A stretch of DNA of 64,000 nt from Bdellovibrionales bacterium (GCA_016786465.1 JAEUWC010000026.1:124001-188000), one strand, 5' to 3'. Numbered from the stretch's first letter, positions 14,622-63,246 are shown. Translations and numbers: made by a program. The notes: a model not told the origin generated them from the letters alone.

Positions 14622-14970
14622 GGGGACGATCCGGCTTCGACGGGAGCATGAAAGTCCTGACTGCGTGCCGAGGTGCCATAGGCCTCGCTAAAAAATGGCA
14701 ACTTGTAATTGCAAATAACAATTACGCTCTAGCTGCTTAATTAAGTCAGCTTCGTTCACCTGGGAATCGCCTGTGTTGTTGGGATGAACGTCATTTAGCA
14801 GGCTAGCTTCGTGCTCCTCATCAGCGGGCATGCGGCGAAATAAAGATTGATGGGGAATGAACTGGGTTTGTCCTTGGAAACAGTTCATTCAACCTAAACA
14901 GGGACTACGCATGTAGACGTTGGCGATGGACGGCTTTCGGACGTGGGTTCGACTCCCACCGTCTCCACCA
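14622..14970 (+). ncRNA. ssrA: Transfer-messenger RNA (tmRNA)
   Basis: tmRNA rescues stalled ribosomes by trans-translation. The 5' GGGGACG pairs with the 3' CGTCTCC before an encoded ACCA, forming the tRNA-like acceptor stem. The usual 5' GATCCGGCTTCGACGG block and the 3' GGTTCGACTCCC T-arm are present. The internal tag frame at 14711-14740 encodes ANNNYALAA. The 3' end (14964-14970) forms part of the prophage attachment core; integration leaves the mature RNA sequence intact. Confidence 0.97.
14711..14740 (+). other. tmRNA tag-peptide reading frame
   Basis: Codons GCA AAT AAC AAT TAC GCT CTA GCT GCT followed by TAA give the tag ANNNYALAA, with the ALAA end recognised by ClpXP-type proteases. 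A second in-line TAA follows immediately in ttaattaa. Confidence 0.9.
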
Positions 14971-16542
14971 TTTTGAATTTCGTTGCATTTGCGAGACAAC
15001 CTGAAACGGTTTTCTCAAATCATATTCAACGGTTGATCCTCGTAGTCTCTGGTTAGAGAGTAGCTTTTCCAAGAACTCTCTTCGTTCCCAGGGGCTACGA
15101 GTATTCCACAAAGATTTCACTGAAGTAGCCAGTTGGAGAGTAGATATTGCGGTCTCTCTCACCGACCCCACAGTGGAGCGTTTGATCCCTTCCATTTCGG
15201 CGATCATCTGCTCTCTCTCTGTTCTCAGCCGTTGAATCTGCCGCTGATACATTTCCGAATCCAACGTACCAGTAGCAAATAAATCGTATGCTTGATCTTT
15301 CCTTCCGTCAATGCCTGCGAGCGCACCTTCGTACTTTCGCAAGCTCTCTTTCATTTTTGCTTCCGCGTTTACAAAACTGTCGTTCAATCTTTCCGTGATT
15401 TTTTCCACGAGTTCTTCGGGCAAAGTGATCTCATCAATCACCGTGGAAAACTGCTCCCATAGCGATTCTTCGGACACGTACATGCCTTTGCGCGATTTGT
15501 GCCAAGGGGCTCCGTCCGCGTCGGTCCTGCCGTTTGTGCAGTGGTACAAGTGATAGGTTCGAATCTCGCCGGTCGCCTTAATGCGCTTCGTGTGCGGATC
15601 GTAAACGATGTTGCAGCCGCAATCCGCGCAAACAAGCCAGCCACCCGTGAGCGCACCGTAGTCGCCCAAGATGCGCTTCACTTTCTTTTTTCCGAAAGTA
15701 GCGGCGACCTTATCGCGAATCGGCTTAGGAATGAAAAGCGGGTGTTTTCCCTCGTATTCAATGCCTTTCCAGTCGAAAAATCCGGAGTAAAATTTATTTT
15801 TGAGTCGCCATTCAATCGTCGAAACGTAGTATTTCTTGATCGGGATTCCGCACTTTTGAGCCAACCCGTCGCCGACAATTTCGGCACGAATTTCTTCGTA
15901 GGTCATTCCCTTTGCTCGAAGCTCGTATTCCTTACGCACGAGAGGCGCGGTCTCATCGTCAATGACGATCGTGGTTTGAGCCTTCCGAAGGTCGTTCCCT
16001 TTCTCGTCCTTCGGGCGAATATGCTTGTAGCCTAGATAGACGTGATTCCCAGGAAACCAGCCCTTTTCGGCCTTCACACGGCACGCATCGGAGATTTTCT
16101 CTCCCATGTTTCGGCTTTGGTGTTTGTTGGTGACGGCCTGGATGTCACGCATGAAAAAATCGGACCCAGGGCTTTTCTTGTGAAAAACTTTTCTATCGTG
16201 GACGTAGTGGAGAATGATGACGCCTTCTTTGATGAGGCGTTCGTTGCGTTCGTTATCCGTGAGATTCCGTGTCTCGCGGTCGAACATATAAAAAAGAATG
16301 TGTTGAGCCTTCTGCCTAATCGCGCGATCCATCGCCGCTGCGTATTTCTTTCGGTCTTCCTTGAAGGCTGATTCGACGATTGGAATGATGTCGTCTTTGG
16401 AGAGTTCAAGCCCGTGCTCTTCGCAATAGCGCTTGATGTCTGCTTCCTGCGTCTCGTGTGAAACGCCGTCTTTTTGCCGCTTGCTACTGACACGCAATAC
16501 GGCGAATGCTTTCTTGTTCGTGGTTCCCCATTCTTGATTCAT
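14905..16542 (-). CDS. Large serine recombinase (phage integrase)
   Basis: A 545-residue site-specific recombinase of the large serine family. The catalytic N-terminal domain has the LRVSSKRQ motif (nucleophile probably Ser19, with Arg17), followed by a recombinase DNA-binding domain, a zinc ribbon (CADCGC and a later YHC, near residues 300-350) and a C-terminal coiled-coil region. ATG at 16542 has GGAG nine bases upstream. The frame crosses attL and stops inside ssrA, so the last 19 residues (RRWESNPRPKAVHRQRLHA) are encoded by host tmRNA DNA. Serine integrases more often use protein-coding or intergenic sites than tmRNA genes. Confidence 0.93.
   Translation of the reverse strand: MNQEWGTTNKKAFAVLRVSSKRQKDGVSHETQEADIKRYCEEHGLELSKDDIIPIVESAFKEDRKKYAAAMDRAIRQKAQHILFYMFDRETRNLTDNERNERLIKEGVIILHYVHDRKVFHKKSPGSDFFMRDIQAVTNKHQSRNMGEKISDACRVKAEKGWFPGNHVYLGYKHIRPKDEKGNDLRKAQTTIVIDDETAPLVRKEYELRAKGMTYEEIRAEIVGDGLAQKCGIPIKKYYVSTIEWRLKNKFYSGFFDWKGIEYEGKHPLFIPKPIRDKVAATFGKKKVKRILGDYGALTGGWLVCADCGCNIVYDPHTKRIKATGEIRTYHLYHCTNGRTDADGAPWHKSRKGMYVSEESLWEQFSTVIDEITLPEELVEKITERLNDSFVNAEAKMKESLRKYEGALAGIDGRKDQAYDLFATGTLDSEMYQRQIQRLRTEREQMIAEMEGIKRSTVGSVRETAISTLQLATSVKSLWNTRSPWERREFLEKLLSNQRLRGSTVEYDLRKPFQVVSQMQRNSKWWRRWESNPRPKAVHRQRLHA
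14964..14974 (+). repeat. attL core (11-bp direct repeat, TCCACCATTTT)
   Basis: TCCACCATTTT spans the last seven bases of the tmRNA and four bases beyond. It is repeated exactly and in the same orientation at 61102-61112; identity stops at both ends of the 11-mer. The two copies enclose the integrase, all phage modules and the metal cargo, so they mark the crossover region of the element. Confidence 0.85.
15049..15061 (+). repeat. 13-bp repeat CTGGTTAGAGAGT, copy near attL
   Basis: Exact copy of a 13-mer also found, inverted, at 22897-22909 and 22982-22994, and with one mismatch at 61008-61020. It starts 75 bp inside attL. A weaker copy (10 of 13) lies at 15130-15142. It falls in the integrase coding sequence. 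Role unknown; possibly a binding site for an excision or regulatory protein. Confidence 0.55.
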
Positions 16543-17750: not shown

Positions 17751-18638
17751 TTAAGCTAGGGCTTCCATCTCGCGTTGCCGTGCCCAATCGTGCATGCCGA
17801 TGTCGGCAAACCCCGGCCAGATGCCAGTCTTTTGAGCTTCGGCGATTTGCTTAAGCAGACGTTTGTACTTGCGGCGTCCGATTTCGATGTCGATTTCATT
17901 CGCTGGTACGCAGAGAATTCGATTCGGCTGCGACTTCTCGATGAAAACAAAAACGTAGGGACCGGGCTCGACACCGACGGTCTTGAGTCCGTCGATCGTG
18001 AAAGCCGCGGACACGTAGTAATGATGATCGGTGATCGCGTCTTGAATATGGCGCTTTGAAAATTGGCCGATCGTTTTCCAGTCGATGACTGTCGGCTGCC
18101 CCAAATACTCGGTCATGCGCTTATCGGGACGGCACTTGCAGAGCACTCCCGAATCCGGATCGGTCCAGAAAACAGTTTCCTCGTAGAGCCCGTTCGATTC
18201 AACAATCGAGCGCGACTGAGGATTAGCCATGAGGCCCGCGTACATGGATTCGATGTCTTCGGCTTGGCTCTCGGTGAGAATGGTCGCGCCTTTATGAGCA
18301 AGCTCCCATTCTTCGCCGGCGACACGTGCGCCGGTGCCAGTGAATTTTGGTTTTACGGCGAAAAGGTTTTTGTACTCTTCGAGATTCAAACGAAACTCGA
18401 TGCGCGAATGCAAGAGTTTGCCGATAAGTAGAGCATCGTTGTCGAACTCTTCGCGGTTTTTCCGCGCCATCATGTTCGCCAAGCTCCACGAAGCATATTC
18501 AATATCGGTTTTAGAGACGCCGGGAAGTTCACGGTGATACTGGTCTCCGTCGATGTCTCCGAAGAGTCCGGCGAGCTTGTTTGCTTCCGCGAGCTGGTGA
18601 AAGCTTTTGATAATTTTTGGTTCCAATTTTTTCATCAT
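17751..18638 (-). CDS. RecE-like PD-(D/E)XK exonuclease
   Basis: A 295-residue nuclease resembling the exonuclease VIII / PDDEXK_1 group used by phages for homologous recombination. Visible features: an early GKLLHSRIEF segment, CRPDKR followed by VIDWKT (the metal-binding Asp and the D-x-K catalytic pair), and a later HHYYVSAAF helix matching the QxxxY-type region. It would resect double-stranded DNA to give 3' tails for the partner protein encoded next. GGGGGA lies just before the ATG at 18638. Confidence 0.85.
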   Translation of the reverse strand: MMKKLEPKIIKSFHQLAEANKLAGLFGDIDGDQYHRELPGVSKTDIEYASWSLANMMARKNREEFDNDALLIGKLLHSRIEFRLNLEEYKNLFAVKPKFTGTGARVAGEEWELAHKGATILTESQAEDIESMYAGLMANPQSRSIVESNGLYEETVFWTDPDSGVLCKCRPDKRMTEYLGQPTVIDWKTIGQFSKRHIQDAITDHHYYVSAAFTIDGLKTVGVEPGPYVFVFIEKSQPNRILCVPANEIDIEIGRRKYKRLLKQIAEAQKTGIWPGFADIGMHDWARQREMEALA

Positions 18639-21706: not shown

Positions 21707-21976
21707 ATGATTGAATTAATGAGAGACAAGGCCGAATCCATCAAAAAACAGCTCATCGCTGCCATTCGAGCAGAAATAGAAGTCTTGGAAAAAACCATGA
21801 CTCAGACTGCGATTGCCAAAAAGGCCGGCGTCTATCAGCCATTCCTTTCGGCGCTTCGAAACATGAATGAAAAGAGCCTGAAAACAGTGGCACTCCAAAA
21901 GCTCATTCCAATGGCTGAAAAACTCGGTCTCGACGTTGAATTGATTATCCGGAAAAACGGCGAACGAATTAAGTGA
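21707..21976 (+). CDS. XRE-family transcriptional regulator
   Basis: An 89-residue regulator with a helical N-terminal extension (about residues 1-35) and a helix-turn-helix (TQTAIAKKAGVYQPFLSALR), followed by a helix and short beta-like tail (LGLDVELIIRKNG). Layout resembles HigA-type or phage Cro-type proteins. No toxin partner is adjacent, so a plain regulator is favoured. Two palindromes lie directly upstream. Its end overlaps the convergent gene by 8 bp. Confidence 0.78.
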   Translation: MIELMRDKAESIKKQLIAAIRAEIEVLEKTMTQTAIAKKAGVYQPFLSALRNMNEKSLKTVALQKLIPMAEKLGLDVELIIRKNGERIK

Positions 21977-22709
21977 CCTTTTCAGCGGGGGGCAAATGCT
22001 GCGCGTCCCGCTCCTCAGACTCCAATTCCTTGAGCCTCTGTTCTATCTGCGCCATGCGCTTTAGCTGAGTCTCGGTGTCTCCTGAGTCCGGCGCTCCGAG
22101 CGCTGCGGGTGTATTGCCCGCGCCGAGCCCCGCATGCAGGTGAGCTTTGCGGTCCACGGGCATTCCGAGTGCGCGGTCCTCGATTTGTTTGCCAACCTGG
22201 ACGACGAGCTTGCCGATCGAAGGCACAATGCGGCCTTTCTTATCGGTTAGCGGAAGGTTCAGGATTTCCCATTGCCTCTCGATCCAACAATACAAGAGCG
22301 GATAGATCATTTTCTCGTAGTCGCGGATCGGCGACAGGAGCCAAGCTACCTTGGCAGGATTGCCCAGCACATGACCGTAAAACAACGCTTCTGAGCAGAT
22401 ACCTCCGAAGACCTCACGGGGCGCGATCCGTTTCTCGGACGTTGGGTCGTTCGACGCTCTCCTGATCTCGTTCCAGAGAGCGCACTTGAGCGCGTAATCC
22501 GTGCGGCTGGGCTCGGCCATAGCTTGCAGCTCACCGTCGGGACGCTCCCAATAGTCAGCCGGCACGCCTTCTACGGCACGAGCAAAGGCTTCGCTATCCA
22601 CGAGGCGCACGAATCCATTCCGATTCTCCGAAACGAGCGCAGGCGGCGTCGGTTCAGTTGACGGATTTAGTGCATCGACAGTGAAGGCATTTAGCTTTTT
22701 TCGGCCCAT
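21969..22709 (-). CDS. Phage protein of unknown function
   Basis: A 246-residue protein: a short basic N-terminus, a helical globular middle (ALKCALWNEIRRA, SEALFYGHVLGNPAKVAWLLSP, YPLLYCWIERQWEIL) and a charged C-terminal helix rich in Glu/Lys. No domain recognised. It could be an early accessory protein. Upstream (22710-23237) lies a long non-coding stretch with the 11-bp repeat array, which may serve its promoter or be an origin. Confidence 0.6.
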   Translation of the reverse strand: MGRKKLNAFTVDALNPSTEPTPPALVSENRNGFVRLVDSEAFARAVEGVPADYWERPDGELQAMAEPSRTDYALKCALWNEIRRASNDPTSEKRIAPREVFGGICSEALFYGHVLGNPAKVAWLLSPIRDYEKMIYPLLYCWIERQWEILNLPLTDKKGRIVPSIGKLVVQVGKQIEDRALGMPVDRKAHLHAGLGAGNTPAALGAPDSGDTETQLKRMAQIEQRLKELESEERDAQHLPPAEKVT

Positions 22710-23237: not shown

Positions 23238-23266
23238 TTGACAAGTAATATACCCCCCTATACTAT
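23238..23266 (+). promoter_or_regulatory. Promoter of the metal-efflux operon
   Basis: TTGACA at 23238-23243, a 17-base spacer and TACTAT at 23261-23266. A transcript starting about seven bases later would begin at or next to the ATG at 23273, so the regulator may be translated from a leaderless message. The spacer contains the operator at 23249. Confidence 0.65.
23249..23262. promoter_or_regulatory. RcnR/CsoR-type operator, TATA-CCCCCC-TATA
   Basis: A run of six C flanked on both sides by TATA, lying between and touching the -35 and -10 elements of the efflux promoter. RcnR/CsoR family repressors are known to bind G/C tracts with flanking inverted repeats, and the gene directly downstream encodes such a repressor. 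The expected behaviour is repression without metal and release when Ni, Co or a similar ion binds. Confidence 0.75.
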
Positions 23267-23272
23267 AGTCTT

Positions 23273-23542
23273 ATGCATACGGTTCGAGAGAAAGAGAAAA
23301 TCATTGCTCGCGTAAATCGTATTAAAGGGCAGCTAGATGCCTTTGCAAAGGCTATTGAGGCTCACGACGACTGCTACAAGGTCATGCAACTTCTTGCGTC
23401 TTGTCGTGGAGCACTGAATGGGCTGATGGGCGATGTGATTGAAGGACACGTTCGAGAGCACATTGTAGAGGCTGAAAACAAAAAAATTGCGGCCAGCTCT
23501 GGAGAAGAGTTGATCGAGATCATGAAAAGCTTTTGGAAGTAA
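23273..23542 (+). CDS. dmeR: RcnR/DmeR-type metal-sensing repressor
   Basis: An 89-residue helical repressor of the FrmR/RcnR/CsoR family. The metal-ligand pattern of the Ni/Co-sensing RcnR branch is visible: a His at position 2, a Cys in AHDDCYKV and two His in EGHVREHIV (H-C-H-H), unlike the Cu-sensing CsoR pattern. It should repress the operon from the TATA-C6-TATA site and release on metal binding. It is followed by a DmeF-type transporter gene, the known dmeRF arrangement. No ribosome-binding site precedes the ATG. Confidence 0.88.
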   Translation: MHTVREKEKIIARVNRIKGQLDAFAKAIEAHDDCYKVMQLLASCRGALNGLMGDVIEGHVREHIVEAENKKIAASSGEELIEIMKSFWK

Positions 23543-23544
23543 AA

Positions 23545-24492
23545 ATGGAAAAAACTGCCACGACCTCAGAATTGTACTGTAACCAGCTTGGTGAGCTCGC
23601 CGTTGAGTTCGAAGAGATTGCAAAAAATGAGCGCCGCACTTTGATTGTCGTGCTCCTTACGGCTGCGATGATGGTCGTTGAAATTATAGCGGGCTACATG
23701 ACGGGCTCGATGGCTCTGCTTGCGGATGGCTATCACATGGCCTCTCATGCTGGAGCATTGGGAATTGCTTACTTGGTCTACCGCCTGGCACGTTCTACAA
23801 AAATTAAGGAACATCTGACTTTTGGCAGCGGAAAACTTCTCCCGTTGGGGGGATATTCGAGCGCAATCGGACTGGGAATTATTGCGGTTTGGATGTCGGT
23901 TGAATCCATTCATCGGATTTTCAATCCGGTTTCCATCGAGTTTAACGAAGCTATCTTTATTGCCGTTGTCGGCCTCGTAGTGAACTTATTGAGCGCCTTA
24001 GTCTTGGGCTCTTCATCGGGACATCATCATCACGACCATGGAGATCACGATCACCATGACCATGATCACGTTCACGATAGCAATCACCGAAGCGCACTCA
24101 TGCATGTTTTGGCCGACGCGCTGACTTCGGTTACTGCCATCGTCGCGCTAATTATCGGCAAATACTATTCTGCGGTCTGGCTTGATCCTGCAATGGGCGT
24201 GGTCGGTTCGGCAGTTATCTTGCGGTGGGCTTATGTGCTCTGCAAGGATGCTGCATGGGAACTGCTCGATGGCCACGCGAAAGGAATCTCTATTCCTGAA
24301 ATTCGTAAAAACGTCGAAGACGCTGGCCATAAAGTGCTCGATCTGCACTTGTGGAAAGTTGGACCTGGAAATTTTTCTTGTCAGTTGATCGTCGAATCGA
24401 AAACTTTGCGAGGAGCGGAGTATTTTCGGCAAAAGCTCGCCGGCAAACTTGGCGCTACACACCTAGTAATAGAAGAAAGGATCGCTCAATAG
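23545..24492 (+). CDS. dmeF: DmeF-type cation diffusion facilitator
   Basis: About 315 residues from the ATG at 23545 (GGAAG just upstream). A cation diffusion facilitator with six predicted membrane segments. Metal-site residues appear in LLADGYHMASH (second segment) and HVLADALTS (fifth). A His/Asp-rich cytoplasmic loop (HHHHDHGDHDHHDHDHVHD) lies between the fourth and fifth segments, as in DmeF Co/Ni exporters. The C-terminal domain is the usual cytoplasmic dimerisation fold. It exports Co, Ni or related ions to the periplasm in exchange for protons. Confidence 0.9.
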   Translation: MEKTATTSELYCNQLGELAVEFEEIAKNERRTLIVVLLTAAMMVVEIIAGYMTGSMALLADGYHMASHAGALGIAYLVYRLARSTKIKEHLTFGSGKLLPLGGYSSAIGLGIIAVWMSVESIHRIFNPVSIEFNEAIFIAVVGLVVNLLSALVLGSSSGHHHHDHGDHDHHDHDHVHDSNHRSALMHVLADALTSVTAIVALIIGKYYSAVWLDPAMGVVGSAVILRWAYVLCKDAAWELLDGHAKGISIPEIRKNVEDAGHKVLDLHLWKVGPGNFSCQLIVESKTLRGAEYFRQKLAGKLGATHLVIEERIAQ

Positions 24493-24538
24493 ACTTGAGG
24501 TTTTTCCAGAAACTCAAGTAGAATAGTAAGAACTGCTT

Positions 24539-24925
24539 ATGTTGAGAAAACTGTATCTCATTTTACTCGCTGCATTAGTCGCTTTGCCGCTCATCACGAA
24601 TGAGCGAGCGCTGTTGCAGCTTCAAGAAATGAATACGCTTGCTCACTTGGCAGCGGTGGAAGCTCAGCACGGCCATAGCCATAGTCAGGCTGACCAACGC
24701 GATGGCAAGCACTCCCACAAACATCAGCATTCGCCCGATGAGCCAGTCCACGAGCACAGCCATTCCGATTCGGCGTTAGTGAATACGGATGTCGCTCGGG
24801 TGGCTCCGCGCTTGTCTGAGCAGTTATTTCGATTGGCTCCCAATCATCACTCGTATCCTTTATTCGATCAGACTCTCCCTCCTAATTTCTTTCTCAAGCT
24901 CACCCTTCGTCCACCCATCGCCTAA
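24539..24925 (+). CDS. Histidine-rich exported protein of the efflux operon
   Basis: A 128-residue protein with a hydrophobic N-terminal signal or anchor (LYLILLAALVALPLI) and a central His-rich stretch with many HSH/HKH repeats (about residues 43-80), followed by a tail without His clusters. A periplasmic metal buffer or sensor is likely. It lies between the dmeF and RND pump genes on the same strand, 47 bp and 69 bp from each. No catalytic motif is visible. Confidence 0.7.
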   Translation: MLRKLYLILLAALVALPLITNERALLQLQEMNTLAHLAAVEAQHGHSHSQADQRDGKHSHKHQHSPDEPVHEHSHSDSALVNTDVARVAPRLSEQLFRLAPNHHSYPLFDQTLPPNFFLKLTLRPPIA

Positions 24926-24994
24926 GCCTTTCTCGGCTTCTTCTTAAATCTGACAGTTTTAGTCTTATTAACCACTTGGCTTGGGGCTTTGGGT

Positions 24995-27900
24995 ATGTTG
25001 AATGCGGTCATTCGTTTTGCTTTAAAATTTAGACTTACAATCCTGTTTCTCGCGGCATCCGCACTCATCTACGGCGGATGGATCGCAAAGAACCTTCCGA
25101 TTGACGTTTTTCCAGACCTCAATCGCCCCACGGTCTCTATTCTGACCGAGGCTCATGGTCTTGCGCCCGAGGAAGTGGAAACCCTGGTCACGCTGCCCGT
25201 CGAGTCTGTGCTGAACGGCACGCCTGGGGTAATTCGCGTGAGATCATCAAGCGGCATCGGCATCTCCATTGTTTATGTGGAGTTCGATTGGGGAACGGAG
25301 ATTTTCAAGAACCGACAGTTTGTGTCCGAACGTCTTCAGCTCGTTCGAGATCGACTCCCCCCAGGCATGACTCCAATGATGGGTCCAGTGACTTCGATCA
25401 TGGGAGAGATTCAGTTCGTCGGTTTAACCAGTCCAGACGCAAGTGTCGATCCAATGGATTTGCGCACGCTTGCCGACTGGACAGTACGCCCTCGGCTCAT
25501 GACGATTCCCGGAATCAGCCAAGTAGTCGTCATGGGCGGACAGGTTAAGCAGTACCAAATCCTCGTTTCGAGCGACAAGCTTCAGCGCAAGGGAATCTCG
25601 CTTGAAGACCTGAAACACGCTCTTGCTGAGATGAGCGAAAACACGACGGGCGGATTTATCGACGTAGGCGAGAAAGAGCTATTGATCCGCCCAATCGGAC
25701 GGGTCGATTCGATTGAACAAATCGAGAATTCATCCATTGGTCTTCATCTCGGACGCCCGGTTTTGGTGAAAGACGTGGCCGAAGTAAAAATCGGTCCAAA
25801 GACAAAACGTGGCGAAGCCAGCATCAACGGCAAACACTCGGTCATCATGACCGTTCAGAAACAACCGGGCGCAAGCACGATCGACCTTACAAAAAAGATC
25901 GACGCTATGCTCGCGGACCTTCAAAAAACGCTGCCTAAAGGGGTGAAGATCGAAAGCGATCTTTTCAAGCAATCCCACTTTATCCAATCATCCATTTCCA
26001 ATGTTGAAGAGGCACTACGCGATGGCGCGATCATGGTCGCGATTATTCTCTTCCTTTTCCTCATGAACGTGCGCACGACCGGCATCACGCTCATCACAAT
26101 CCCTCTTTCACTCCTGATAAGTGCAATCGTTTTCCGCTTCCTTGGAATGAGCATTAACACGATGACTCTCGGCGGATTGGCAGTGGCGATCGGCGAGCTC
26201 GTGGACGACGCGATTGTGGATGTTGAAAACGTCTTTCGGAGACTCCGCGAGAATCGGGCTCTTTCTTCTCCCAAACCCACTCTTGAAGTAGTCTACGAGG
26301 CTTCAAGTGAGGTTAGAAATTCGATCGTCTTCTCGACAATCATCGTAATTTTAGTTTTCATTCCGCTCTTTGCCCTGGGTGGAATCGAAGGACGCTTGTT
26401 TGCCCCTCTCGGTGTGGCCTACATCGTGTCGCTTGCGGCATCGCTCCTTGTTTCATTGACCGTGACGCCTGTGCTTTGTTCTTACCTGCTTCCGAACATG
26501 AAAACGATTGCGCACAAAGAAGATGGCTTCCTGGTGCGCTACCTCAAGTCGGTTGATGAAAAAATTCTCAAAAAGGTCATCGGTCGTCCGTATCTTGTTT
26601 TGGGATTTTGCGGCGTACTTCTGCTTGGCTCTCTTGCGCTACTGCCGTTTATGGGGAGCAATTTCCTGCCGGCGTTCAATGAGGGCACCGCAACTTTAGG
26701 TGTTGCCGCCGCGCCCGGAATTTCACTTTCGGCGTCTGACAATTTGGGAACGAAAGTCGAAGAAGCGCTTCTTACAATTCCCGAAGTCAAATCCACGATC
26801 CGACGAACTGGGCGCGCGGAAATGGATGAGCATGCCGAAGGCGTTCACTGGAGCGAAATCGACGTAGATTTCAAAGAAAGCGAAAGGCCCAAGGGAGTCG
26901 TGCTCCAAGAGCTTCGTGAAAAAGTAGAAAAAGTCGGCGACATTTACCTCAATATTGGTCAGCCCATCAGCCACCGTCTCGATCATCTTTTGTCTGGCGT
27001 CCGTGCGCAAATCGCCGTGAAGCTTTTCGGGCCAGAGCTTCCGGAATTGCGCCGCATCGGAGCGCAAATCGAAGGAGTTTTAAAAGAAATTCCAGGAATA
27101 GTCGATCTTCAGCTTGAGCCATTGGTGCTGATTCCGCAGCTAAAGATTGCCATCAATCGAGAAGAAGCCGCTCGTTTCGCTGTTCGTCCAGGCTCCCTTG
27201 CTGAAGATCTCGAAATGGCTTTGAACGGCGAGCAGGTCGCAAGCTTTCTACAAAGCCAACGAATCTACGATATTTTCATGCGCCTCGACGATCAGTCGCG
27301 CGTTTCTCCGGATGCCATCAAAGCAACGCTTATGAAAACGCTTCCAAATGGGCAAACTATTCGCGTTTCCGATGTCGCTGAAGTCTATCAGGGTACTGGC
27401 CCCAATATGGTGAACCGCGAAGATATGCAGCGGCGAATCGTCGTATCGGCAAACTCTCAAGGCAGAGACTTGGGGAGTTTGATCCAAGAAATCCAATCTA
27501 AAATTCAGGAAAAAGTGAAGCTGCCGACAGGTTATTTCATCGTCTATGGCGGCCAATTTGAAAGTCAGCAACAAGCATCAAGACTACTCCTGTTTTTAGG
27601 CATCCTTTCCCTGATCGGAATTTTCGTTGTCCTCTACATTCACTTTAAGTCGATCGCTCTCACGCTTCAGGTCATGCTCAACGTACCGTTGGCTTTAATC
27701 GGAAGCATAATTGCGATCTACATGACCGAGAGAGTTCTTTCTGTTGCCACTCTCATCGCCTTCATCACTCTTTGCGGTATCGCAAGCCGCAACGGAATCA
27801 TGATGATTAGTCACTACATCCACCTAGTGAAGGAAGAGGGAGAAAAGTTCGACGAAAATATGATTATTCGCGGATCTCTCGAACGCTTGGTCCCGGTGTT

Positions 27901-28138
27901 GATGACCGCATTCTCTGCTGCGCTCGCCCTCGTTCCACTTTTGCTCTCGAAGGGTGAGCCGGGAAAAGAAATTCTTTATCCAGTCGCAGTCGTCATCGTA
28001 GGTGGCCTTCTCTCATCGACGCTTTTGGACATTTTTGTAACACCCGCAGTTTTCTACCGTTTTGGGAGACGATCAGTCGAAAAACTGATCGCTTCTCAGA
28101 AGCAACCAACCCTCAACAATAAAGGAGAACAATCATGA
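24995..28138 (+). CDS. czcA: Heavy-metal efflux RND pump (CzcA/CusA family)
   Basis: A 1047-residue inner-membrane pump of the HME-RND family: one N-terminal membrane helix, a large periplasmic domain, a block of helices, a second periplasmic domain and a final block. Transmembrane motif 4 reads AIGELVDDAIVDVENV: the Asp and Glu of the proton relay are there, but the first Asp of the classical Czc motif is replaced, as in Cus-type pumps, so the substrate cannot be fixed. The pump would pass metal to the TolC-like channel encoded downstream. The ATG at 24995 is preferred over the TTG at 24989. Confidence 0.93.
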   Translation: MLNAVIRFALKFRLTILFLAASALIYGGWIAKNLPIDVFPDLNRPTVSILTEAHGLAPEEVETLVTLPVESVLNGTPGVIRVRSSSGIGISIVYVEFDWGTEIFKNRQFVSERLQLVRDRLPPGMTPMMGPVTSIMGEIQFVGLTSPDASVDPMDLRTLADWTVRPRLMTIPGISQVVVMGGQVKQYQILVSSDKLQRKGISLEDLKHALAEMSENTTGGFIDVGEKELLIRPIGRVDSIEQIENSSIGLHLGRPVLVKDVAEVKIGPKTKRGEASINGKHSVIMTVQKQPGASTIDLTKKIDAMLADLQKTLPKGVKIESDLFKQSHFIQSSISNVEEALRDGAIMVAIILFLFLMNVRTTGITLITIPLSLLISAIVFRFLGMSINTMTLGGLAVAIGELVDDAIVDVENVFRRLRENRALSSPKPTLEVVYEASSEVRNSIVFSTIIVILVFIPLFALGGIEGRLFAPLGVAYIVSLAASLLVSLTVTPVLCSYLLPNMKTIAHKEDGFLVRYLKSVDEKILKKVIGRPYLVLGFCGVLLLGSLALLPFMGSNFLPAFNEGTATLGVAAAPGISLSASDNLGTKVEEALLTIPEVKSTIRRTGRAEMDEHAEGVHWSEIDVDFKESERPKGVVLQELREKVEKVGDIYLNIGQPISHRLDHLLSGVRAQIAVKLFGPELPELRRIGAQIEGVLKEIPGIVDLQLEPLVLIPQLKIAINREEAARFAVRPGSLAEDLEMALNGEQVASFLQSQRIYDIFMRLDDQSRVSPDAIKATLMKTLPNGQTIRVSDVAEVYQGTGPNMVNREDMQRRIVVSANSQGRDLGSLIQEIQSKIQEKVKLPTGYFIVYGGQFESQQQASRLLLFLGILSLIGIFVVLYIHFKSIALTLQVMLNVPLALIGSIIAIYMTERVLSVATLIAFITLCGIASRNGIMMISHYIHLVKEEGEKFDENMIIRGSLERLVPVLMTAFSAALALVPLLLSKGEPGKEILYPVAVVIVGGLLSSTLLDIFVTPAVFYRFGRRSVEKLIASQKQPTLNNKGEQS

Positions 28139-28581
28139 GGAAGCTTGCCATTGCAGTCAGTATGTTCGTTTCGTTTAGCGCGTTTGCGCATGATGAAGGT
28201 CACGGTCCTAAGCTCACGGATACGGGACGCCAAGGCGGAATCGTCGCACCAGTAGTGGATGCGAAGGACGCCGCAAAAGGAGCCGGAGCACAGGCCGTTT
28301 TCAAATCTGAATTGGTGAGGTCCGATGACGGATCTATTCGTCTTTTTCTCTACGATAAGAGCATGAATCCTGCGGACCTCAGTAAATTCGGAAAAACTGC
28401 GCAAGGAACCCTTCTTTCCAAGAAAAGCAAAAAAATGGCGAAGGAAACCTTCTCGTTGAATCAAGAAGACGGAAGTTTTTTCGGCAAAGCCCCCAAGGCA
28501 GCCAGCAAACCTTTCAATATTGAAGTTCGCGTTAAAGAAGGCAGCAAAGAGCTTCTTACTGCGTTTGAAAACCTAGACTGA
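28135..28581 (+). CDS. Small exported protein of the efflux operon, possible metal-binding adaptor
   Basis: A 148-residue protein with a clear signal peptide (cleavage near FAHDEG) and a mature N-terminus starting HDEGHGP that could bind metal. Its ATG overlaps the pump stop codon (ATGA), so translation is coupled. It occupies the place where a membrane fusion protein (CzcB) is expected but is far too short and has no hairpin or lipoyl halves. It may be a periplasmic chaperone; whether it acts as an adaptor is inference. Confidence 0.7.
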   Translation: MRKLAIAVSMFVSFSAFAHDEGHGPKLTDTGRQGGIVAPVVDAKDAAKGAGAQAVFKSELVRSDDGSIRLFLYDKSMNPADLSKFGKTAQGTLLSKKSKKMAKETFSLNQEDGSFFGKAPKAASKPFNIEVRVKEGSKELLTAFENLD

Positions 28582-28609
28582 ATCGTAAATGGATCGCGCA
28601 AGGTGGATT

Positions 28610-29872
28610 ATGAAAGAGAAGAATTTCCGATTAGCAATACTATTGTTGTTTTTCACAGCGACTTCGGCTCTCGGGGCTTCGTCTCTTGAAGTAAAGCCAG
28701 ATGATTTGCCGAAGCTGCTCTCAGACAGAAACCAAAACGTGCGGGGCTCTGCACTGATGGTCGATGCAGCCGAAGCCAAAACTGGACACCTTGCGCGTTC
28801 CTATCTTCCCACGCTGAACTTCGAGGTGGGCGGAGAAACCTTTCAAACTGGCTCCTATCCCACGAAAACCGAGCCTTATGGACTACTTGAAGCAAAGCTT
28901 AACCTTTTTCGTGGTGGAAAGGACTTGTTAGAAGAGCGAATTAACCGTGCTCAAGTGCGATTGGCAGATGCTCAGTCGAAGCAAGTCACAAGTGCTGAGC
29001 TTGTAAACACTAGAAAACTTTATTGGACCTTGGTTTTTCAACGGGAAGAAATTTTAATCCTGAAAGATGCGTTGGAGCAGAACGAAAAAAATCTAAATGC
29101 TGCTAATCGCAGAATTCAACGGGGTCTTACGAGCGACACCGATCGTTTGGACTTTGAAATCAACCGCGATCAACTCAAGGAAGACATAAAGAGCTTAGAA
29201 CACGAGGCAGAGCTTACGCAGATCAAATTGCGCGCTCTTCTCGCATTGTCTGAAGACGTAGAGATCAAAACCTTAGCCGTCATTCCTCACGACCATGACG
29301 AAGAGTTGCTAAAAACCAAGTTTCAGGGCGAAGGAAACTTTCACGTTGAAACAGTAAAGGCCAGTGGCGAAGTCTCAGAGAATCAGAGCGCACGTGAGAA
29401 CCGCTGGTGGACACCTACACTAGATTTATACGCTGGTTACTATCTCTACACTCTGAGGGACCGCGATTATTTATCCATTGGTCAACGCGATGATCGCGTT
29501 GCTGGGATTCGGCTCACTTTTCAGCTCTTCGATGGATTTCAGGCAAAAAGCATCGCGTCCTCTTACTCAATTCAAGCTCAAGCATACGAGAACCAGGCCA
29601 TTCAAAAGCGCCGAGACACCGAGGCCGATTTCACTCTCGCAAAAGAGGAAATGCAGCACATGCATGAGTTGATTCATCAAGCGGAGAAAAGAATTGAGCA
29701 AGGCAAGCTGTATCTTTCAAAAACTTTGTCGGAATACGACCGCGGAGTGAAGAATTCTCCCGACGTTTTGGGTGCAATCCTTCGCCAGAATCAGTTTCGA
29801 AGACGTTACGCAGAAATAAGAAAAAACTATGTTTTTTCGAAAGCTGAACTGCTCTCAATTTTGGGGAAGTGA
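28610..29872 (+). CDS. TolC/CzcC-type outer-membrane efflux protein
   Basis: A 420-residue outer-membrane factor. Signal peptide (cleavage near ALGAS), then two similar halves rich in long helices, for example LEQNEKNLNAANRRIQRGLT and MHELIHQAEKRIEQGKLYLS, which form the periplasmic helical barrel, with beta-strand segments such as YAGYYLYTLRD between. AAGGTGG precedes the ATG at 28610; the earlier GTG/ATG choices lack this. It would be the outer channel for the RND pump. Confidence 0.88.
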   Translation: MKEKNFRLAILLLFFTATSALGASSLEVKPDDLPKLLSDRNQNVRGSALMVDAAEAKTGHLARSYLPTLNFEVGGETFQTGSYPTKTEPYGLLEAKLNLFRGGKDLLEERINRAQVRLADAQSKQVTSAELVNTRKLYWTLVFQREEILILKDALEQNEKNLNAANRRIQRGLTSDTDRLDFEINRDQLKEDIKSLEHEAELTQIKLRALLALSEDVEIKTLAVIPHDHDEELLKTKFQGEGNFHVETVKASGEVSENQSARENRWWTPTLDLYAGYYLYTLRDRDYLSIGQRDDRVAGIRLTFQLFDGFQAKSIASSYSIQAQAYENQAIQKRRDTEADFTLAKEEMQHMHELIHQAEKRIEQGKLYLSKTLSEYDRGVKNSPDVLGAILRQNQFRRRYAEIRKNYVFSKAELLSILGK

Positions 29873-29939
29873 CGTTTATTTCCTCGATGGTTCCTGCAAA
29901 TGCATTGGTCGCAAAGGCCGTGCATATTTCAGTCGTGTG

Positions 29940-29974
29940 GCCCCGAGCGACGCGGGAATCGGGGCACCTTTTTT
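29940..29974 (+). terminator. Rho-independent terminator of the efflux operon
   Basis: Stem GCCCCGA / TCGGGGC (29940-29946 with 29959-29965), 12-base loop, then a run of six T at 29969-29974. It lies between the TolC-like gene and the small lipoprotein gene and would end the main efflux transcript. Confidence 0.85.
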
Positions 29975-30000
29975 AACAAACACGAATGAGGAGATCAAAA

Positions 30001-30342
30001 ATGATGAATAGAACGATATTAACACTGGTTTTGGCAGGGTCCATTGGCACGCTCGCAGGTTGCGCCCACGGTGGGCCTGCGTTGGGAACACTTGCATTGA
30101 AACATTCCGACACTGAAGCCGACGTATATTTGCACACCGAGGATCTAAAAAAGGGTGATAAATTGGCATTTTTTCAGAATGAATGTCGCTCCAGGGAGAG
30201 TGCGCGAGGAACGAGAAACGTATGCAATAAAGTTAAAGTCGGCAGCGGCGAAGTGGTTCAAGTTCTGAATGAGCACTATTCAACTGTGAGATTGCCTGCA
30301 AGTGTTCAGCTCGGTGAAGGCACTCTTGTTGAAAAGGAATAG
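30001..30342 (+). CDS. Small lipoprotein at the end of the cargo
   Basis: A 113-residue protein with a type II signal peptide ending in LAGC (Cys near residue 20). GAGGAG lies seven bases before the ATG at 30001. The mature part has a KKGDKLAFFQNEC segment and a short beta-rich C-terminus. It follows the operon terminator, so it may be expressed by readthrough. Its stop is two bases from the end of the convergent phage late operon, marking the cargo border. No family recognised. Confidence 0.65.
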   Translation: MMNRTILTLVLAGSIGTLAGCAHGGPALGTLALKHSDTEADVYLHTEDLKKGDKLAFFQNECRSRESARGTRNVCNKVKVGSGEVVQVLNEHYSTVRLPASVQLGEGTLVEKE

Positions 30343-30344
30343 TC

Positions 30345-43215: not shown

Positions 43216-43390
43216 TTGTTTTCCTCACTTTGGTTAAGACGTAGGCTCCGAAGAGAACTACGCCGCAAATAATCAGCTCGATCAGGCTGGCCTGCCGGAC
43301 CTTGCTCGTTTTTCCGAGCCAATATTCCAGGGCTGCGTAGCCCAAGAGAGTCAGCCCAAACTTCCACCACTCAACGTCTTGGCAATTCAT
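43187..43390 (-). CDS. Small two-helix membrane protein, probable holin
   Basis: A 67-residue protein with two membrane segments (about residues 10-25, with LTLLGYAALEYWL, and 35-53, with LIELIICGVVLFGAYVL) and a polar C-terminal tail. This size and topology fit a class II holin. The ATG overlaps the stop of the endolysin gene (ATGA), giving a coupled endolysin-holin pair. Confidence 0.65.
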   Translation of the reverse strand: MNCQDVEWWKFGLTLLGYAALEYWLGKTSKVRQASLIELIICGVVLFGAYVLTKVRKTNGTKGNEGN

Positions 43391-43851
43391 GCCTGCGCGC
43401 TCCTTTCGATCATCGTGAGCGCGGCACTGAGTCCTTGCGTTTTGTAGGCTTCACCGATGGCGGCCCAGCGGACGTTGATCTTGAGTTCGTTGTGGTAGCG
43501 ATCTTGGTGCTTAAAAATTCCGCCCCAGCGCGCGCCGACGGATTCGCAAGCGCGCTGATAGACGTTCCAGCGCGAGTCGTTGAGCGGAAGCCAAAGAGGT
43601 TTCCGATCGGCAAACAAAGTCCAGTCCGAAGCGCAGCCATAATTGTGCGGCGACTCGCCGGGCTCAGCGTCGGTCACGATCGCGCCAGGAAGGGTTCGCC
43701 CCTGAGCGTAGATTTGCTCCTGCTCTTCAAACGTGCGCACGCCCCAAAACGGCTGCCAGTCTTCGGGAAGCTGCTCGCAAAGAGCGTCGTAAATCGGGAT
43801 GTACAAGTGATGGAGTCCGCGGCGGAACTTGGCGCGTCTTGCTTCGCTCAT
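43387..43851 (-). CDS. Endolysin, VanY-like peptidase (D-Ala-D-Ala / L-Ala-D-Glu type)
   Basis: A 154-residue peptidase without a signal peptide. Motifs of the VanY/Peptidase_M15 fold: GVRTFEEQEQIYAQGRT, SPHNYGCASDW (zinc His and Asp) and the later DRYHNEL (His). It would cut peptidoglycan peptide bridges during lysis. It starts with an ATGA overlap after the small membrane protein and ends with one before the putative holin gene. Confidence 0.85.
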   Translation of the reverse strand: MSEARRAKFRRGLHHLYIPIYDALCEQLPEDWQPFWGVRTFEEQEQIYAQGRTLPGAIVTDAEPGESPHNYGCASDWTLFADRKPLWLPLNDSRWNVYQRACESVGARWGGIFKHQDRYHNELKINVRWAAIGEAYKTQGLSAALTMIERSAQA

Positions 43852-46588: not shown

Positions 46589-47836
46589 TTAGAAGTTGAT
46601 GCCGAAGATGATTCCGCAGTACGAAGGCCGCACCACGATCAACTCCCCGAAGAGGCAAATATCGACGAGATATTCGTAGCCAGTTTGGTTACGAATCACG
46701 AAGTATTCGAGCCCATCCGGAGAACGCTGCTTGCGGAAGAAGCCGTTGGAGGCGAATTTCAGCGCTCTCCAATCCATGAAGATGATGATGTCGTCATCAG
46801 CCTCTTGGATACCGACGAACTTAATCACGCCGCCGGTGACGGAACCGATCGTGACTTCCTGCCAGTTGTAGACGGAAGTCTTTCTCGAATCCGGCACGAC
46901 GTTGAACGAACCCTTGGACGATTCAACCGCTTTGACGATCGCGCCAAAGTTTTTGTACGAGCACCAAATCTCGGTGGCGTTCCCTTTGCTGAGAAGCCTG
47001 TAGCGAGTGAGTGCATCGAACACTTTGAGCAGGATGTTCGCTCCGGTGATGTCGTTTCCGGGAATGTTGATGGCCTGGAGGTACGGGTACGCGAGCTTCG
47101 TCTGCCCGTAGAGCGCCGCACTGCCACCGTTCGCCGCGGAAAGCAGAGCCTTCCGAACCGAGTTGAACGCGCTGGTTTGCGCGCCAGGGTGATAAGTCCG
47201 AGCGTTCTGCGCCGTGGTCATGTTGTTGGCCGAGAAGTCAACCGGCGTAGCGCCGCCTCGCGTGGTGACGAGAGTCACCCGGAAGTTGTTGATGTCGATG
47301 GCCGAAACATAGCCCGTGGCCGGGGACGAGTTGTCATCGTCCACGAGAACCTTTTGGCCCACGGTGAAGCGATCCGGACGATCGACGGTGATGATACCGT
47401 CGTTGGCCGTGGAGTCTGCCGTGAGCTTGGCGAAGTGATCGCCAACGAGAAGGTTCACCGAGACCACGTTCTTCATGTAGTCCATGAAGTCTTCGATCTC
47501 GTCGGGCAAAAGGCGGAGGAAGTTTTGCTCCGAGATTTTGTCGTGCTCCATCAAATCTCGGGAATTGAACTTCATCGTTCCCCAGATTTCGATTTGCGCA
47601 TCGACGCTACCGCGGACGTACTTGCTCGACGCAACGTCGTTAGACGCCGTGAGCTGGCCGTACTCTACGCTCGACGCGTAAGCGCCGCGGAAGGGTACGA
47701 CGTACTTTCCACCTTTCCACCCATCGTCCTTCTCAATGTTCTTGAGGACGTAGGTTCGCGGAATGAACTCTTCACGAAGCAAATCTTCGTTCAGATATTC
47801 ATTCAGCATGTCTTGAAATTCACGATTGGTCGCCAT
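46589..47836 (-). CDS. Major capsid protein
   Basis: A 415-residue protein, by position and content the capsid protein: it directly follows the scaffold gene, lacks signal peptide or enzymatic motif and mixes helix and strand as in the HK97 fold, with the N-arm MATNREFQDMLNEYLNEDLL and a C-terminal beta-rich part (GVIKFVGIQEADDDIIIFMD). AAAGGAGC precedes the ATG. No cleavage site could be identified. Confidence 0.78.
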   Translation of the reverse strand: MATNREFQDMLNEYLNEDLLREEFIPRTYVLKNIEKDDGWKGGKYVVPFRGAYASSVEYGQLTASNDVASSKYVRGSVDAQIEIWGTMKFNSRDLMEHDKISEQNFLRLLPDEIEDFMDYMKNVVSVNLLVGDHFAKLTADSTANDGIITVDRPDRFTVGQKVLVDDDNSSPATGYVSAIDINNFRVTLVTTRGGATPVDFSANNMTTAQNARTYHPGAQTSAFNSVRKALLSAANGGSAALYGQTKLAYPYLQAINIPGNDITGANILLKVFDALTRYRLLSKGNATEIWCSYKNFGAIVKAVESSKGSFNVVPDSRKTSVYNWQEVTIGSVTGGVIKFVGIQEADDDIIIFMDWRALKFASNGFFRKQRSPDGLEYFVIRNQTGYEYLVDICLFGELIVVRPSYCGIIFGINF

Positions 47837-49078: not shown

Positions 49079-51268
49079 TCATGCGACGGCACTCCACGGA
49101 GAAGCGCCATTGCTCATACCTCCGCCCTGGGGAGCTGGGAGCCCCGGTGGCGAGGATTGGGTGGCGTGCTGAGAAATTTCTGCCAAGACTCCTGAGTTCA
49201 TCGTCTGGAGCTCTGCAAGCCCACTGCCTTGGGCTTCGAGCTGCTTGATGAGCCACACGAGCGATTCGTAAGGGAGTCGCGCGCGTTGGGTCTTGTTCGG
49301 GTTTTTGGGGTCCGGCATGTAAAGGTCGCAAACCACAAGGTATCCGCCGGTGGGGATATAGCCTTGCTTCGCGCGCTGAATCTGGAGCTGATTGAAGGCT
49401 TCCATCTTCTCATGGAGCGCGACTTTTTGCTGGTAGTTCATCTGCACCTGCGGAGGCAGGAATTTGAAGTCGGCCTGGCGCATGCGCGCGGTCAGGCGCT
49501 TGATGAAGTACGGGTGTGGATCATAAGGATGAACCGGCGGCGTCTCGCCGCGATCGAGCGCAAGTACGTCGTTCGTCACGTTGTCGTAATCGAGCGTGAG
49601 GTCATCGAAGCTCTGATCGAAGTTCGCGTAAGGCATCTGGCGCATGAGCTTGCCGATGTCTTCGGGCTTGAGCTGCGTACCCACGTACTGAAGCGCATGA
49701 TTGATGACGATTTGCTTGCCGAGCTTCGTTTCGATGTCGTCGCTTTGAGCCTCAACTTTCACTTCGTAGCAGAGATCGGAGCTGGAGCGGAATTCGGCAA
49801 TGTTGACGGCTTCGTTCGTGCCGATCGCGTAGATCACGGCATCGTCCGGCAAGTGGATCTTCGCGAGCTTGAGGTAAGTTTTCACGAGGTCGATCAAGAA
49901 ACGCTCAAAGCCCTTGATGTAACGCTGGAACTGTTTTTTCTGGCGCGCGGAGCGGAAAAGCATGACGTAGGGATCAAGCTGCGCTGGGAGCTCGGCGGTT
50001 TCCTCTTGAACCATTGCGACCTGATACATTTCTGCAATCTGCGTGGTCATGTAGTTGAGGTACTGCGAGCCGTCGCGGCCCTGGAGAATCTTGGGCTCCA
50101 TGCCCGTGTAGTTCACAGTGCGCACGCCTGGGAGCGAGACGCCGGCGGATACCTTCGTACCGTTTTGAATGAGAAGCTTGTCGTCGCCGAGCGTGATCTG
50201 GTGCTCGGCCATTTTGGAAGCTGCGCGATTGATCTCGGCTTGATAGGGCCTGAGCGTCTTGACGACGGCACGACCGCGCGGAGTCGTCTGTACGCGATCG
50301 AATCCGCGGAAAATAATTGGGAACACGCCACCAGGAAGTTCACCTTCGGCAACGATTCCTTCTTTTGTGGAGAAGTAGAAATATCCGTTTGGATAGAGCG
50401 TGCATGGACGGAAATAAAACTCGCGGAGTAGAACTTGGTCTTTGGCGTGGCTGTAGCCGCCTTTGCCGCTATCGAAAACAAGGAAGGTCTCGTCCTGGCT
50501 TGATTGCGCAAGTTTTTCAATTCCAGGTATGTCACGGAAACGCGCGATCAGCTCTTCGCGATCAATCATCTTTCGGACGCAGAGCCAGGGCGCTTTGCGG
50601 ATGTCTTTCGCTTCCGGAGGACGCAGGCAGTTGAAGCCGAAGACTTCCTCGAAAACGAACTCTCCTTCATGAACCGGGCGGCTTTGATCGGGCGCGGGCT
50701 GGAACTGCATGCCCATCATCGAGCCGTCGTCGGTTGTTTCCTGGCCATTTGGATCGAGAAAAAGAGGCTGGCCTTGTTTGTTGAGCTTCTGCTCGTAGCC
50801 TTTGATTTTGCCGGCGCTTGCGTCCCAGAAAAGTTTTACGATCGTTTCACCGATCTGCACGTAGTTGTCAGCCCAATCGTCAATGAGCTCGTCGATACTG
50901 TACTTTTCAACGGCATCACGCCAAACGGCGTGGTGGAGTTTTGAAACTTTCTGGTCGTGGACTTCTTTTTCGTTCTTAGGCGAGAAGCCCACACCGGGGT
51001 TCGCGGAGATGATGTTGTTTGAGTAAATTTTGCAGATGCGCTGAATATGGTTTTTGGTGAGCCGGAGTTTTTGCTCGTTGCTGAGATCCTTCGCCTCGCG
51101 GATTCGACGATAAAAGGAGCTCATCCGGCGGTTGTAGTGCTCCCCGGAAACAAGCAGTAGATTTGATCTCTGCTCAGCAAAAATTTCTTGGTCTACGGTC
51201 TCGGCATCTCTATAAAGACTGTTTAAGTCTTCAATCGAGTGCTTCTGACTCATCCGATTCTTCGGCAT
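49079..51268 (-). CDS. Portal protein
   Basis: A 729-residue podovirus-type portal. An N-terminal helical region (SLYRDAETVDQEI), the portal-fold middle (IGETIVKLFWDASAGKIKGYEQKL, GVFPIIFRGFDRVQTTPRGRAV) and a long C-terminal helical barrel. The C-terminus ends with SPWS, matching the motif of the small virion proteins. It follows the terminase genes and overlaps the preceding small gene by 38 bp; an ATG at 51253 is an alternative start. Confidence 0.85.
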   Translation of the reverse strand: MPKNRMSQKHSIEDLNSLYRDAETVDQEIFAEQRSNLLLVSGEHYNRRMSSFYRRIREAKDLSNEQKLRLTKNHIQRICKIYSNNIISANPGVGFSPKNEKEVHDQKVSKLHHAVWRDAVEKYSIDELIDDWADNYVQIGETIVKLFWDASAGKIKGYEQKLNKQGQPLFLDPNGQETTDDGSMMGMQFQPAPDQSRPVHEGEFVFEEVFGFNCLRPPEAKDIRKAPWLCVRKMIDREELIARFRDIPGIEKLAQSSQDETFLVFDSGKGGYSHAKDQVLLREFYFRPCTLYPNGYFYFSTKEGIVAEGELPGGVFPIIFRGFDRVQTTPRGRAVVKTLRPYQAEINRAASKMAEHQITLGDDKLLIQNGTKVSAGVSLPGVRTVNYTGMEPKILQGRDGSQYLNYMTTQIAEMYQVAMVQEETAELPAQLDPYVMLFRSARQKKQFQRYIKGFERFLIDLVKTYLKLAKIHLPDDAVIYAIGTNEAVNIAEFRSSSDLCYEVKVEAQSDDIETKLGKQIVINHALQYVGTQLKPEDIGKLMRQMPYANFDQSFDDLTLDYDNVTNDVLALDRGETPPVHPYDPHPYFIKRLTARMRQADFKFLPPQVQMNYQQKVALHEKMEAFNQLQIQRAKQGYIPTGGYLVVCDLYMPDPKNPNKTQRARLPYESLVWLIKQLEAQGSGLAELQTMNSGVLAEISQHATQSSPPGLPAPQGGGMSNGASPWSAVA

Positions 51269-51623
51269 CCCCCAACTCTCCGTTCATCAGCATGCGCTCG
51301 GCTTCGAGCGGGTTTTCGATGAACAATTGCGCAAGGCGATCCTCTTTGAGCCGAAGTTCGTCGGCTTCAAGAGCGTCTTGGGTTTGTTTGTTGTGCTGTT
51401 CCTCTGAGATGGCCTTCTCAGGAGGTGCGGATGAAGGGATTGAAGGTCTTGCGAGTGCCGGGCCGGGCGACAGGGATTCGGCGGGCCTGCCGAACCGGAC
51501 GTGGAGACCGTGGAAGCGAAGTTCCTGGACTCCTACCTTTGCACCTACTTCAAGAATACGGCAAATTTCCGTTGTAGACCAGGGAGTTCTTTTATCCGCT
51601 TCCGTAGGCGTGGTTCCACTCAT
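51231..51623 (-). CDS. Small late protein between terminase and portal
   Basis: About 130 residues from the ATG at 51623, inside the last codons of the terminase gene. A helical segment with WSTTEICRILEVGAKVGVQELRF looks like a DNA- or protein-binding helix pair, followed by a Pro/Ser-rich part and an acidic tail (GELGDAEESDESEALD). Small terminase subunits can sit next to the large one, but this one lies downstream of it, so that is only a possibility. Confidence 0.55.
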   Translation of the reverse strand: MSGTTPTEADKRTPWSTTEICRILEVGAKVGVQELRFHGLHVRFGRPAESLSPGPALARPSIPSSAPPEKAISEEQHNKQTQDALEADELRLKEDRLAQLFIENPLEAERMLMNGELGDAEESDESEALD

Positions 51624-58945: not shown

Positions 58946-59118
58946 TTTTTCCTCCGTGCTGAAAAAAAGAAGACGGCGAGCTCACCGGGAGCCGTGAGGC
59001 CCCCGGCTTCCTGAGCATGCGGCAGCATGAATTCAGGGCGCTCGCCGTCCTGCGCGGAACTGGTGAATGGGGAACAAACACCAGCTCGCGCAAATGCGTG
59101 GTTGTGGGGAGAGATCAT
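58942..59118 (-). CDS. Very small phage protein
   Basis: A 58-residue protein whose ATG overlaps the stop of the DnaC-like gene. Contains several His and an aromatic/basic C-terminal tail (ELAVFFFSARRKK). Support is only from the tight operon context. Confidence 0.45.
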   Translation of the reverse strand: MISPHNHAFARAGVCSPFTSSAQDGERPEFMLPHAQEAGGLTAPGELAVFFFSARRKK

Positions 59119-60943: not shown

Positions 60944-60959
60944 GTTTCTCCCCATTTTT

Positions 60960-61101: not shown

Positions 61102-61112
61102 TCCACCATTTT
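61102..61112 (+). repeat. attR core (11-bp direct repeat, TCCACCATTTT)
   Basis: Exact copy of the ssrA 3' end core at 14964-14974. To the right lies DNA that fits the original downstream flank of ssrA (hairpin at 61124-61147); to the left lies phage DNA. Confidence 0.85.
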
Positions 61113-61123: not shown

Positions 61124-61147
61124 GAACGCCCCCATCCGGGGGCGTTC
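61124..61147 (+). terminator. Displaced terminator-like hairpin of ssrA
   Basis: A ten-base-pair stem, GAACGCCCCC with GGGGGCGTTC, and loop ATCC. There is no T-run after it. In the reconstructed empty site it would start 19 bases after the last tmRNA base, the expected place for the ssrA terminator. Confidence 0.6.
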
Positions 61148-63145: not shown

Positions 63146-63246
63146 TGCAAACTTATCACTTCATATCTGTTGAAACAGCTACTTCTCATGATTTTTGTCT
63201 TATTTAAAAGATTTGGAAGTGGTCTCATTCAGGCAACCCTTAACCC

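Follow-up and report, generated by a model that had tools for sequence, protein, structure and literature searches.

The stretch of DNA analysed here (the window, 64,000 nucleotides from the Bdellovibrionales bacterium GCA_016786465.1, JAEUWC010000026.1:124001-188000) contains a metal-efflux operon inside a putative prophage of a temperate tailed phage. The operon consists of seven intact rightward open reading frames (ORFs; 23273-30342, all on the + strand), whose place and order are those of the original prediction, and family matches back its assignment of the repressor, DmeF, the resistance-nodulation-division (RND) pump and the TolC-type channel. The first gene, dmeR (23273-23542), encodes a Co/Ni repressor of the RcnR/CsoR family (PF02583, 1.9e-19) with the ligand residues His2, Cys34, His59 and His63. 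It adjoins dmeF (23533-24492), encoding a Co(II)/Ni(II) exporter of the cation diffusion facilitator (CDF) family with a His-rich loop, which scores 341 bits against the NCBIfam equivalog NF033827 (cut-off 250). Then come a His-rich exported peptide ending in LRPPIA (24539-24925), probably NieI/CzcI-like, with a counterpart at the same place in the loci L072, L090 and others; a nieA-type RND pump of the heavy-metal efflux (HME) class (24989-28138), which reaches 830 bits against the CusA/CzcA family TIGR00914 (curated cut-off 701) and has GGLAVAIGELVDDAIVDVEN in its fourth transmembrane segment; a small exported protein starting AHDEGHGPK... that we call cep-like (28135-28581); a nieC-like outer-membrane channel of the TolC family (28589-29872; OEP PF02321, 2e-34); and a small lipoprotein with the lipobox LAGC (29986-30342), which also has a counterpart near the pump in the locus L030. 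Pfam returned no match for the His-rich peptide, the small exported protein or the lipoprotein.

A real-looking promoter, TTGACA-17-TACTAT (23238-23266, +), precedes dmeR, in agreement with the claim that the operon has one of its own. Its spacer and -10 box hold the DmeR-type operator ATATACCCCCCTATACTAT, which matches the operator ATAGGGTACCCCCCTATGCTATG of Sinorhizobium meliloti dmeRF, itself located between -35 and -10 (PMC6044271). At the other end, the stop of the lipoprotein gene (30342) and that of the last late gene of the phage, L1 (30345-30722, -), converge 2 bp apart, as originally described. L1 is intact, and its C-terminus, GLNPWSLQGEALSRY, matches that of a phage relative, G059 (GFNPWSLQGEALAR). 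The GC content at third codon positions (GC3) is 0.44-0.56 in the cargo, 0.59-0.74 in the late and replication genes, and 0.52-0.63 in the host. Neither insertion sequences (IS) nor flanking repeats were found around the operon, and acquisition by such means was rejected.

The prophage spans 46.1 kb between two att repeats (window 14,964-61,112). Its integration target would be ssrA, the tmRNA gene (14622-14970, +; ARAGORN), the 3' end of which forms attL. An 11-bp direct repeat, TCCACCATTTT, corresponding to this 3' end plus TTTT, occurs at 14964-14974 and at 61102-61112 (both +), and no further copy exists across the window and the 25 kb covered beyond it. We read the two copies as the attL and attR cores, and integration as probably having taken place at the ssrA 3' end by the large serine integrase (14905-16542, -; Resolvase/Recombinase Pfam, PHROG 95 integrase), whose ORF runs outward across the phage end into ssrA. 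Directly beyond attR stands a hairpin, AACGCCCCC-ATCC-GGGGGCGTT (61125-61146, +), which is presumably the displaced ssrA terminator: most relatives have a comparable GC-rich hairpin 3' of ssrA, where here phage DNA stands instead. So short a core was found only by k-mer comparison together with the hairpin. There is no long att repeat, the 21-bp ssrA 3' end being single-copy, and a general repeat search gave chance families only. Since the operon is located between attL and attR, it lies within the element.

Another 11-mer, CTGGTTAGAGA, has four copies in the window, at 15049, 22899(-), 22984(-) and 61008, all within the prophage, and a shorter form at 60981. The copies are close to both att sites and two of them lie within ~340 bp upstream of the cargo promoter; they are possible phage operators or sites related to the integrase or to a recombination directionality factor.

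Besides an integrase and att repeats around the element, the prophage has intact terminase, portal, capsid, lysis and replication genes, TerS being assigned solely by the position of its homologue in relatives. The description of the operon as phage cargo thus held: it sits inside an att-bounded prophage with complete-looking genes for integration, recombination, replication, packaging, head and lysis. Profile matches identify, in addition to the integrase, an exonuclease VIII-type PDDEXK nuclease (17751-18638), the endolysin (43387-43851; PHROG 15351), the portal protein (49079-51268; PHROG 156), the large terminase TerL (51592-53124; PHROG 2), and a DnaC-like helicase loader with an O/DnaD-like replication initiator (59115-60955), all on the - strand. 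The probable major capsid protein (46589-47836, -) has no PHROG match and was assigned by position and because the counterparts in the closest phage contigs are 54-63% identical to it. The probable TerS (21969-22709, -), without Pfam or PHROG match, is homologous to the gene that relatives have immediately before TerL. A conserved phage protein (16797-17732, -; PHROG 3657, 3.3e-88) has no assigned function and may be the recombination partner of the exonuclease.

Because the portal matched nothing among ~50,700 GenBank phage records, our phage comparison relied on IMG/VR, where 34 relatives of this portal were found. Late-gene order from the terminase to L1, the last late gene, is conserved and syntenic with these relatives. 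In G059 the gene following L1 is an early-side gene in convergent orientation, and it is exactly this border that the cargo fills in the window phage. Only three other genomes among 369 of the phylum have a related capsid gene. No metal cargo follows the late genes in the prophage of the genome G237, whose capsid is 38% identical. The genome G047, from another family of the same order, was considered as the home of a sister prophage and rejected, with only ~3.8 kb of phage there (G047:C2:4795-8557; L026/L034).

An unrelated phage carries the same core module. The IMG/VR contig 3300048589_001596 (G058) is myovirus-like, with a lambda-family portal, GpA terminase, capsid E, baseplate proteins and a tyrosine integrase, and none of its phage genes is related to those of the window phage. 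Between its portal and protease genes lie a five-gene core encoding a His-rich peptide, an RND pump (70% identical), a cep-like protein, a TolC-type channel and the lipoprotein, and extra genes for an outer-membrane protein, a CorC-type protein and an HTH/DUF1232 protein. In the eight relatives of this phage where both genes are covered, portal and protease are ~190 bp apart. The portal/protease junction is a recurrent cargo slot. A ninth relative (L207 7549-8651) has a 1.5 kb insert there with two extra genes, one of them an opposite-strand gene for an exported protein.

In the pump tree, the G058 pump is sister to those of the chromosomal loci L091/L093 (100/99), and the window pump branches separately, within a 20-member clade that is otherwise mostly chromosomal in Bdellovibrionota. 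As the two phage-borne pumps are not sisters, two separate captures from a chromosomal pool are indicated. The original prediction had held that finding the operon also without the phage would speak against cargo status. Its core of RND pump, exported protein and TolC-type channel does occur in phage-free Bdellovibrionota chromosomes; this shows the origin of the cargo and does not count against its being cargo. Since the core module is also present, independently, in an unrelated phage, this pump, which lacks an adaptor, seems to be moved among these bacteria by phages.

The pump, with its HAEGVH (615-620) and HRLDH motifs, falls in the NieA clade (HME5/'class 6'). It was from these motifs that NieA of Cupriavidus neocaledonicus STM 6070 was suggested to be a nickel pump belonging to a new HME class; its operon, nieIC-cep-nieBA, includes a 'conserved exported protein' (PMC7060636). 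The two operons share the HAEGVH/HRLDH pump, a TolC-type channel, a small exported protein and a small first gene of the module, whereas ours lacks nieB, has another gene order, is headed by dmeRF and lies on a prophage. Position, length and composition suggest that its small proteins are homologous to NieI and Cep. The operon also shares an HME-RND permease and a TolC-type channel with CusCFBA and CzcCBA of E. coli and Cupriavidus, but not the CusB/CzcB adaptor; CusF is a plausible functional parallel to its small, presumably metal-binding periplasmic protein. Pump and channel of a tripartite (CBA) system are thus present and the adaptor is missing, with none within 6 kb of the pump. The same is true of all 20 members of the Bdellovibrionota clade (support 100/100), against 51 of 63 other relatives that do have an adaptor within this distance; the search used a profile built from adaptors adjoining related pumps, and the statement on the clade depends on the flanking sequence covered, four short contigs limiting the view on one side. 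The host genome has one weak adaptor gene of the HlyD/membrane fusion protein (MFP) type above the family cut-off, elsewhere and not near a metal pump. This single weak MFP candidate compares with six RND matches in the same genome.

All clade members that could be read downstream of the pump encode, right after it, an exported protein of 130-150 residues that starts with AHDEGHGPK or AHEGH/GDH. AlphaFold predicts the cep-like protein of the window confidently as an Ig-like beta-sandwich (pLDDT 86.6). When its profile is compared with the N-terminal regions of adaptors that serve related pumps, the match has a probability of 92% (E 9e-8, single target). Homology with this part of the adaptor is likely, not proven, because the signal peptide and the His motif add to the score and some adaptor starts are mispredicted. 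Since the model has neither hairpin nor lipoyl domain, the protein would be structurally unable to replace the adaptor body. A search of PDB sequences with the small-protein profile gave no match, and a fold search gave only Ig/FN3-like matches, none with E<=0.001 and one of them to a metal protein (Helicobacter pylori CrdA, 0.08), which are too weak to indicate a specific function. In some adaptor-less operons the cep-like protein is accompanied by another small exported protein, AHGEDKPGP.GG...MPGAFHTE (L092 9552-9977, L094 9562-9984, L095 14778-15203, L096 14769-15188). We regard as rather unlikely, if worth stating, the broader proposal that this HME-RND clade of Bdellovibrionota works without a canonical adaptor through a stand-alone exported Ig-fold protein, the equivalent of the metal-binding domain with which the missing adaptor would start at its N-terminus, and that unrelated phages repeatedly capture the module and spread it through this bacterial group.

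Our preferred explanation, to which we give a probability of about 0.82, is that a temperate tailed phage inserted at ssrA has taken on a self-regulated metal-efflux operon as cargo, forming a separate convergent unit behind its last late gene, probably serving Ni/Co efflux and captured from a chromosome. The position of the operon between attL and attR, its own DmeR-type promoter and operator, a GC3 unlike that of the late genes and a pump from a mostly chromosomal clade are read directly in the sequence. DmeR would repress from its operator until Ni(II) or Co(II) occupies the His/Cys/His/His site; DmeF would then carry the metal from the cytoplasm to the periplasm, from where the NieA-type pump and the TolC-type channel would expel it; the His-rich peptide and the cep-like Ig-fold protein may assist by binding metal in the periplasm. 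Either an adaptor encoded elsewhere in the genome would be supplied, or none would be needed. Lysogens would gain tolerance to Ni and Co. The module would have come from a bacterial chromosome, a different capture having given the G058 copy.

Several observations weigh against this explanation. The probable TerS lies ~30 kb from TerL, on the far side of the cargo and late genes, which could mean that the phage is rearranged or defective; this displacement is the main sign of rearrangement. The second phage may also be defective, because it is a metagenome contig with a 10 kb insert inside the structural gene block. As about one match of a bare 11-mer is expected by chance in such a comparison, the att case rests on the position of the repeat, at the end of ssrA and beside the integrase, and on the hairpin after attR. 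The operon was originally credited with its own terminator, and this was not supported: none was found at 30343, and terminator-like matches (10) do not exceed the 11.4 expected from shuffles. Finally, a pump without adaptor may fail to span the envelope. The displaced TerS, together with the shifts in base composition at both edges of the operon, could fit a composite, in which two phage remnants (on the left integrase, exonuclease and TerS, on the right the late genes) surround a chromosomal metal operon and no single working phage exists. We find this improbable, given that one att pair encloses everything, the ssrA hairpin is restored beyond attR, CTGGTTAGAGA occurs near both ends and beside the cargo and only within the element, the junction leaves the last late gene intact and the operon has no flanking repeats. 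The same composition shifts, in a genome of 30 contigs that may be metagenome-assembled, raise the suspicion that operon and phage were misjoined by the assembly. Such a chimera is very hard to reconcile with the window lying mid-way in a 212 kb contig of the 3.63 Mb genome, where host genes are found to left and right and the att sites are consistent, and with an independent phage contig that has the same kind of cargo.

The cargo could also be genuine and have as its main role the efflux of a different metal (Zn, Cd or Cu), or the handling of periplasmic metal in predation. CDF and HME-RND pumps are often broad, HME-class motifs are imperfect predictors of substrate, and dmeRF of S. meliloti responds to copper as well (PMC6044271). 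We consider such a role less probable than Ni/Co efflux, yet a more serious contender than the composite. The Met623 of CusA is not conserved in the window pump, where Trp621 aligns with it. Furthermore, nickel and cobalt are favoured because the DmeR ligands, the DmeRF-type operator, the equivalog score of DmeF and the histidine motifs of NieA agree. DmeR has the HCHH ligands of RcnR and adjoins DmeF, and its operator is an inverted repeat with a C-tract between -35 and -10. The top NCBIfam match of the repressor, FrmR, was below its cut-off and was dropped because the ligand set is of the RcnR type. The dmeRF pairs of Rhizobium leguminosarum, Agrobacterium and S. meliloti likewise have an RcnR/CsoR-family DmeR followed by DmeF and a C-tract operator in this place (PMC7055735, PMC6044271), whereas the window dmeRF heads a seven-gene operon with an RND module and is phage-borne. 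Relatives of DmeF in three other genomes (G042, G046, G049) have no RND module nearby. The cobalt/nickel-type substrate first proposed thus remains the best-supported guess from the sequence. The original prediction did not mention the NieA type of the pump, the lack of a periplasmic adaptor, the serine integrase with its att site at ssrA, or the second phage.

The accompanying claim that metal resistance is rare in phages was overstated. Metal-resistance genes were reported in 8.9% of 63,058 soil prophages (PMC13343844), and RND, CDF and P-ATPase genes have been described in viral contigs and prophages, including RND genes in the viral contig VC-2 from Cr soil (PMC8240259) and metal transporter genes in Paracoccus prophages (PMC6536676). 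GenBank phage records contain RND genes too (for the most part, these records are unannotated or mixed), as do phages of the Leptospira LE1 type. Our case shares metal transport genes on temperate phages with these reports, and differs from them in having a complete self-regulated operon, att-defined ends, a host of Bdellovibrionota type as judged from named relatives of its genes, and a second, unrelated phage that shares the core and has relatives with the empty site. In the literature searched, we found no account of a dmeRF plus adaptor-less Nie-type module with att-defined ends that recurs across unrelated phages of one bacterial group. Metal genes on prophages are hence already known; the self-regulated adaptor-less variant appears to be new. 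Most claims of phage metal-resistance genes are database matches in metagenomic contigs. Here, the ends of the element, the gene tree and the logic of empty sites (the late operon of the relatives runs on into early genes, and portal and protease are adjacent in the relatives of the second phage) show that unrelated phages captured one module on two separate occasions. Moreover, the adaptor is normally held to be indispensable, though it is missing from every operon of this pump clade that was examined. This makes a question on RND efflux testable: can an RND pump and a TolC-type channel move metal across the envelope when only a small soluble domain replaces the adaptor?

Some observations concern the surroundings of the prophage and its relatives. 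Just to the right of attR (window 61952-64000; L024 3247-6941) there are a GIY-YIG-type gene, whose family match is weak, and, in AT-rich DNA, a full HerA (PADLOC 2e-207) beside SIR2 (4e-109), which make up a SIR2-HerA defence pair; one more ORF has no match. The phage fragment in G047 encodes a TerL 97% identical to that of the window phage, and the first 271 residues of its portal are 96% identical; it is a decayed remnant, and points to recent spread of the phage across families. Lastly, another phage relative (G061:C1:37763-39346, L175) encodes, past its late operon, a membrane protein of the TerC family and a TerF-like vWA protein, which may be a further metal- or tellurite-related cargo.

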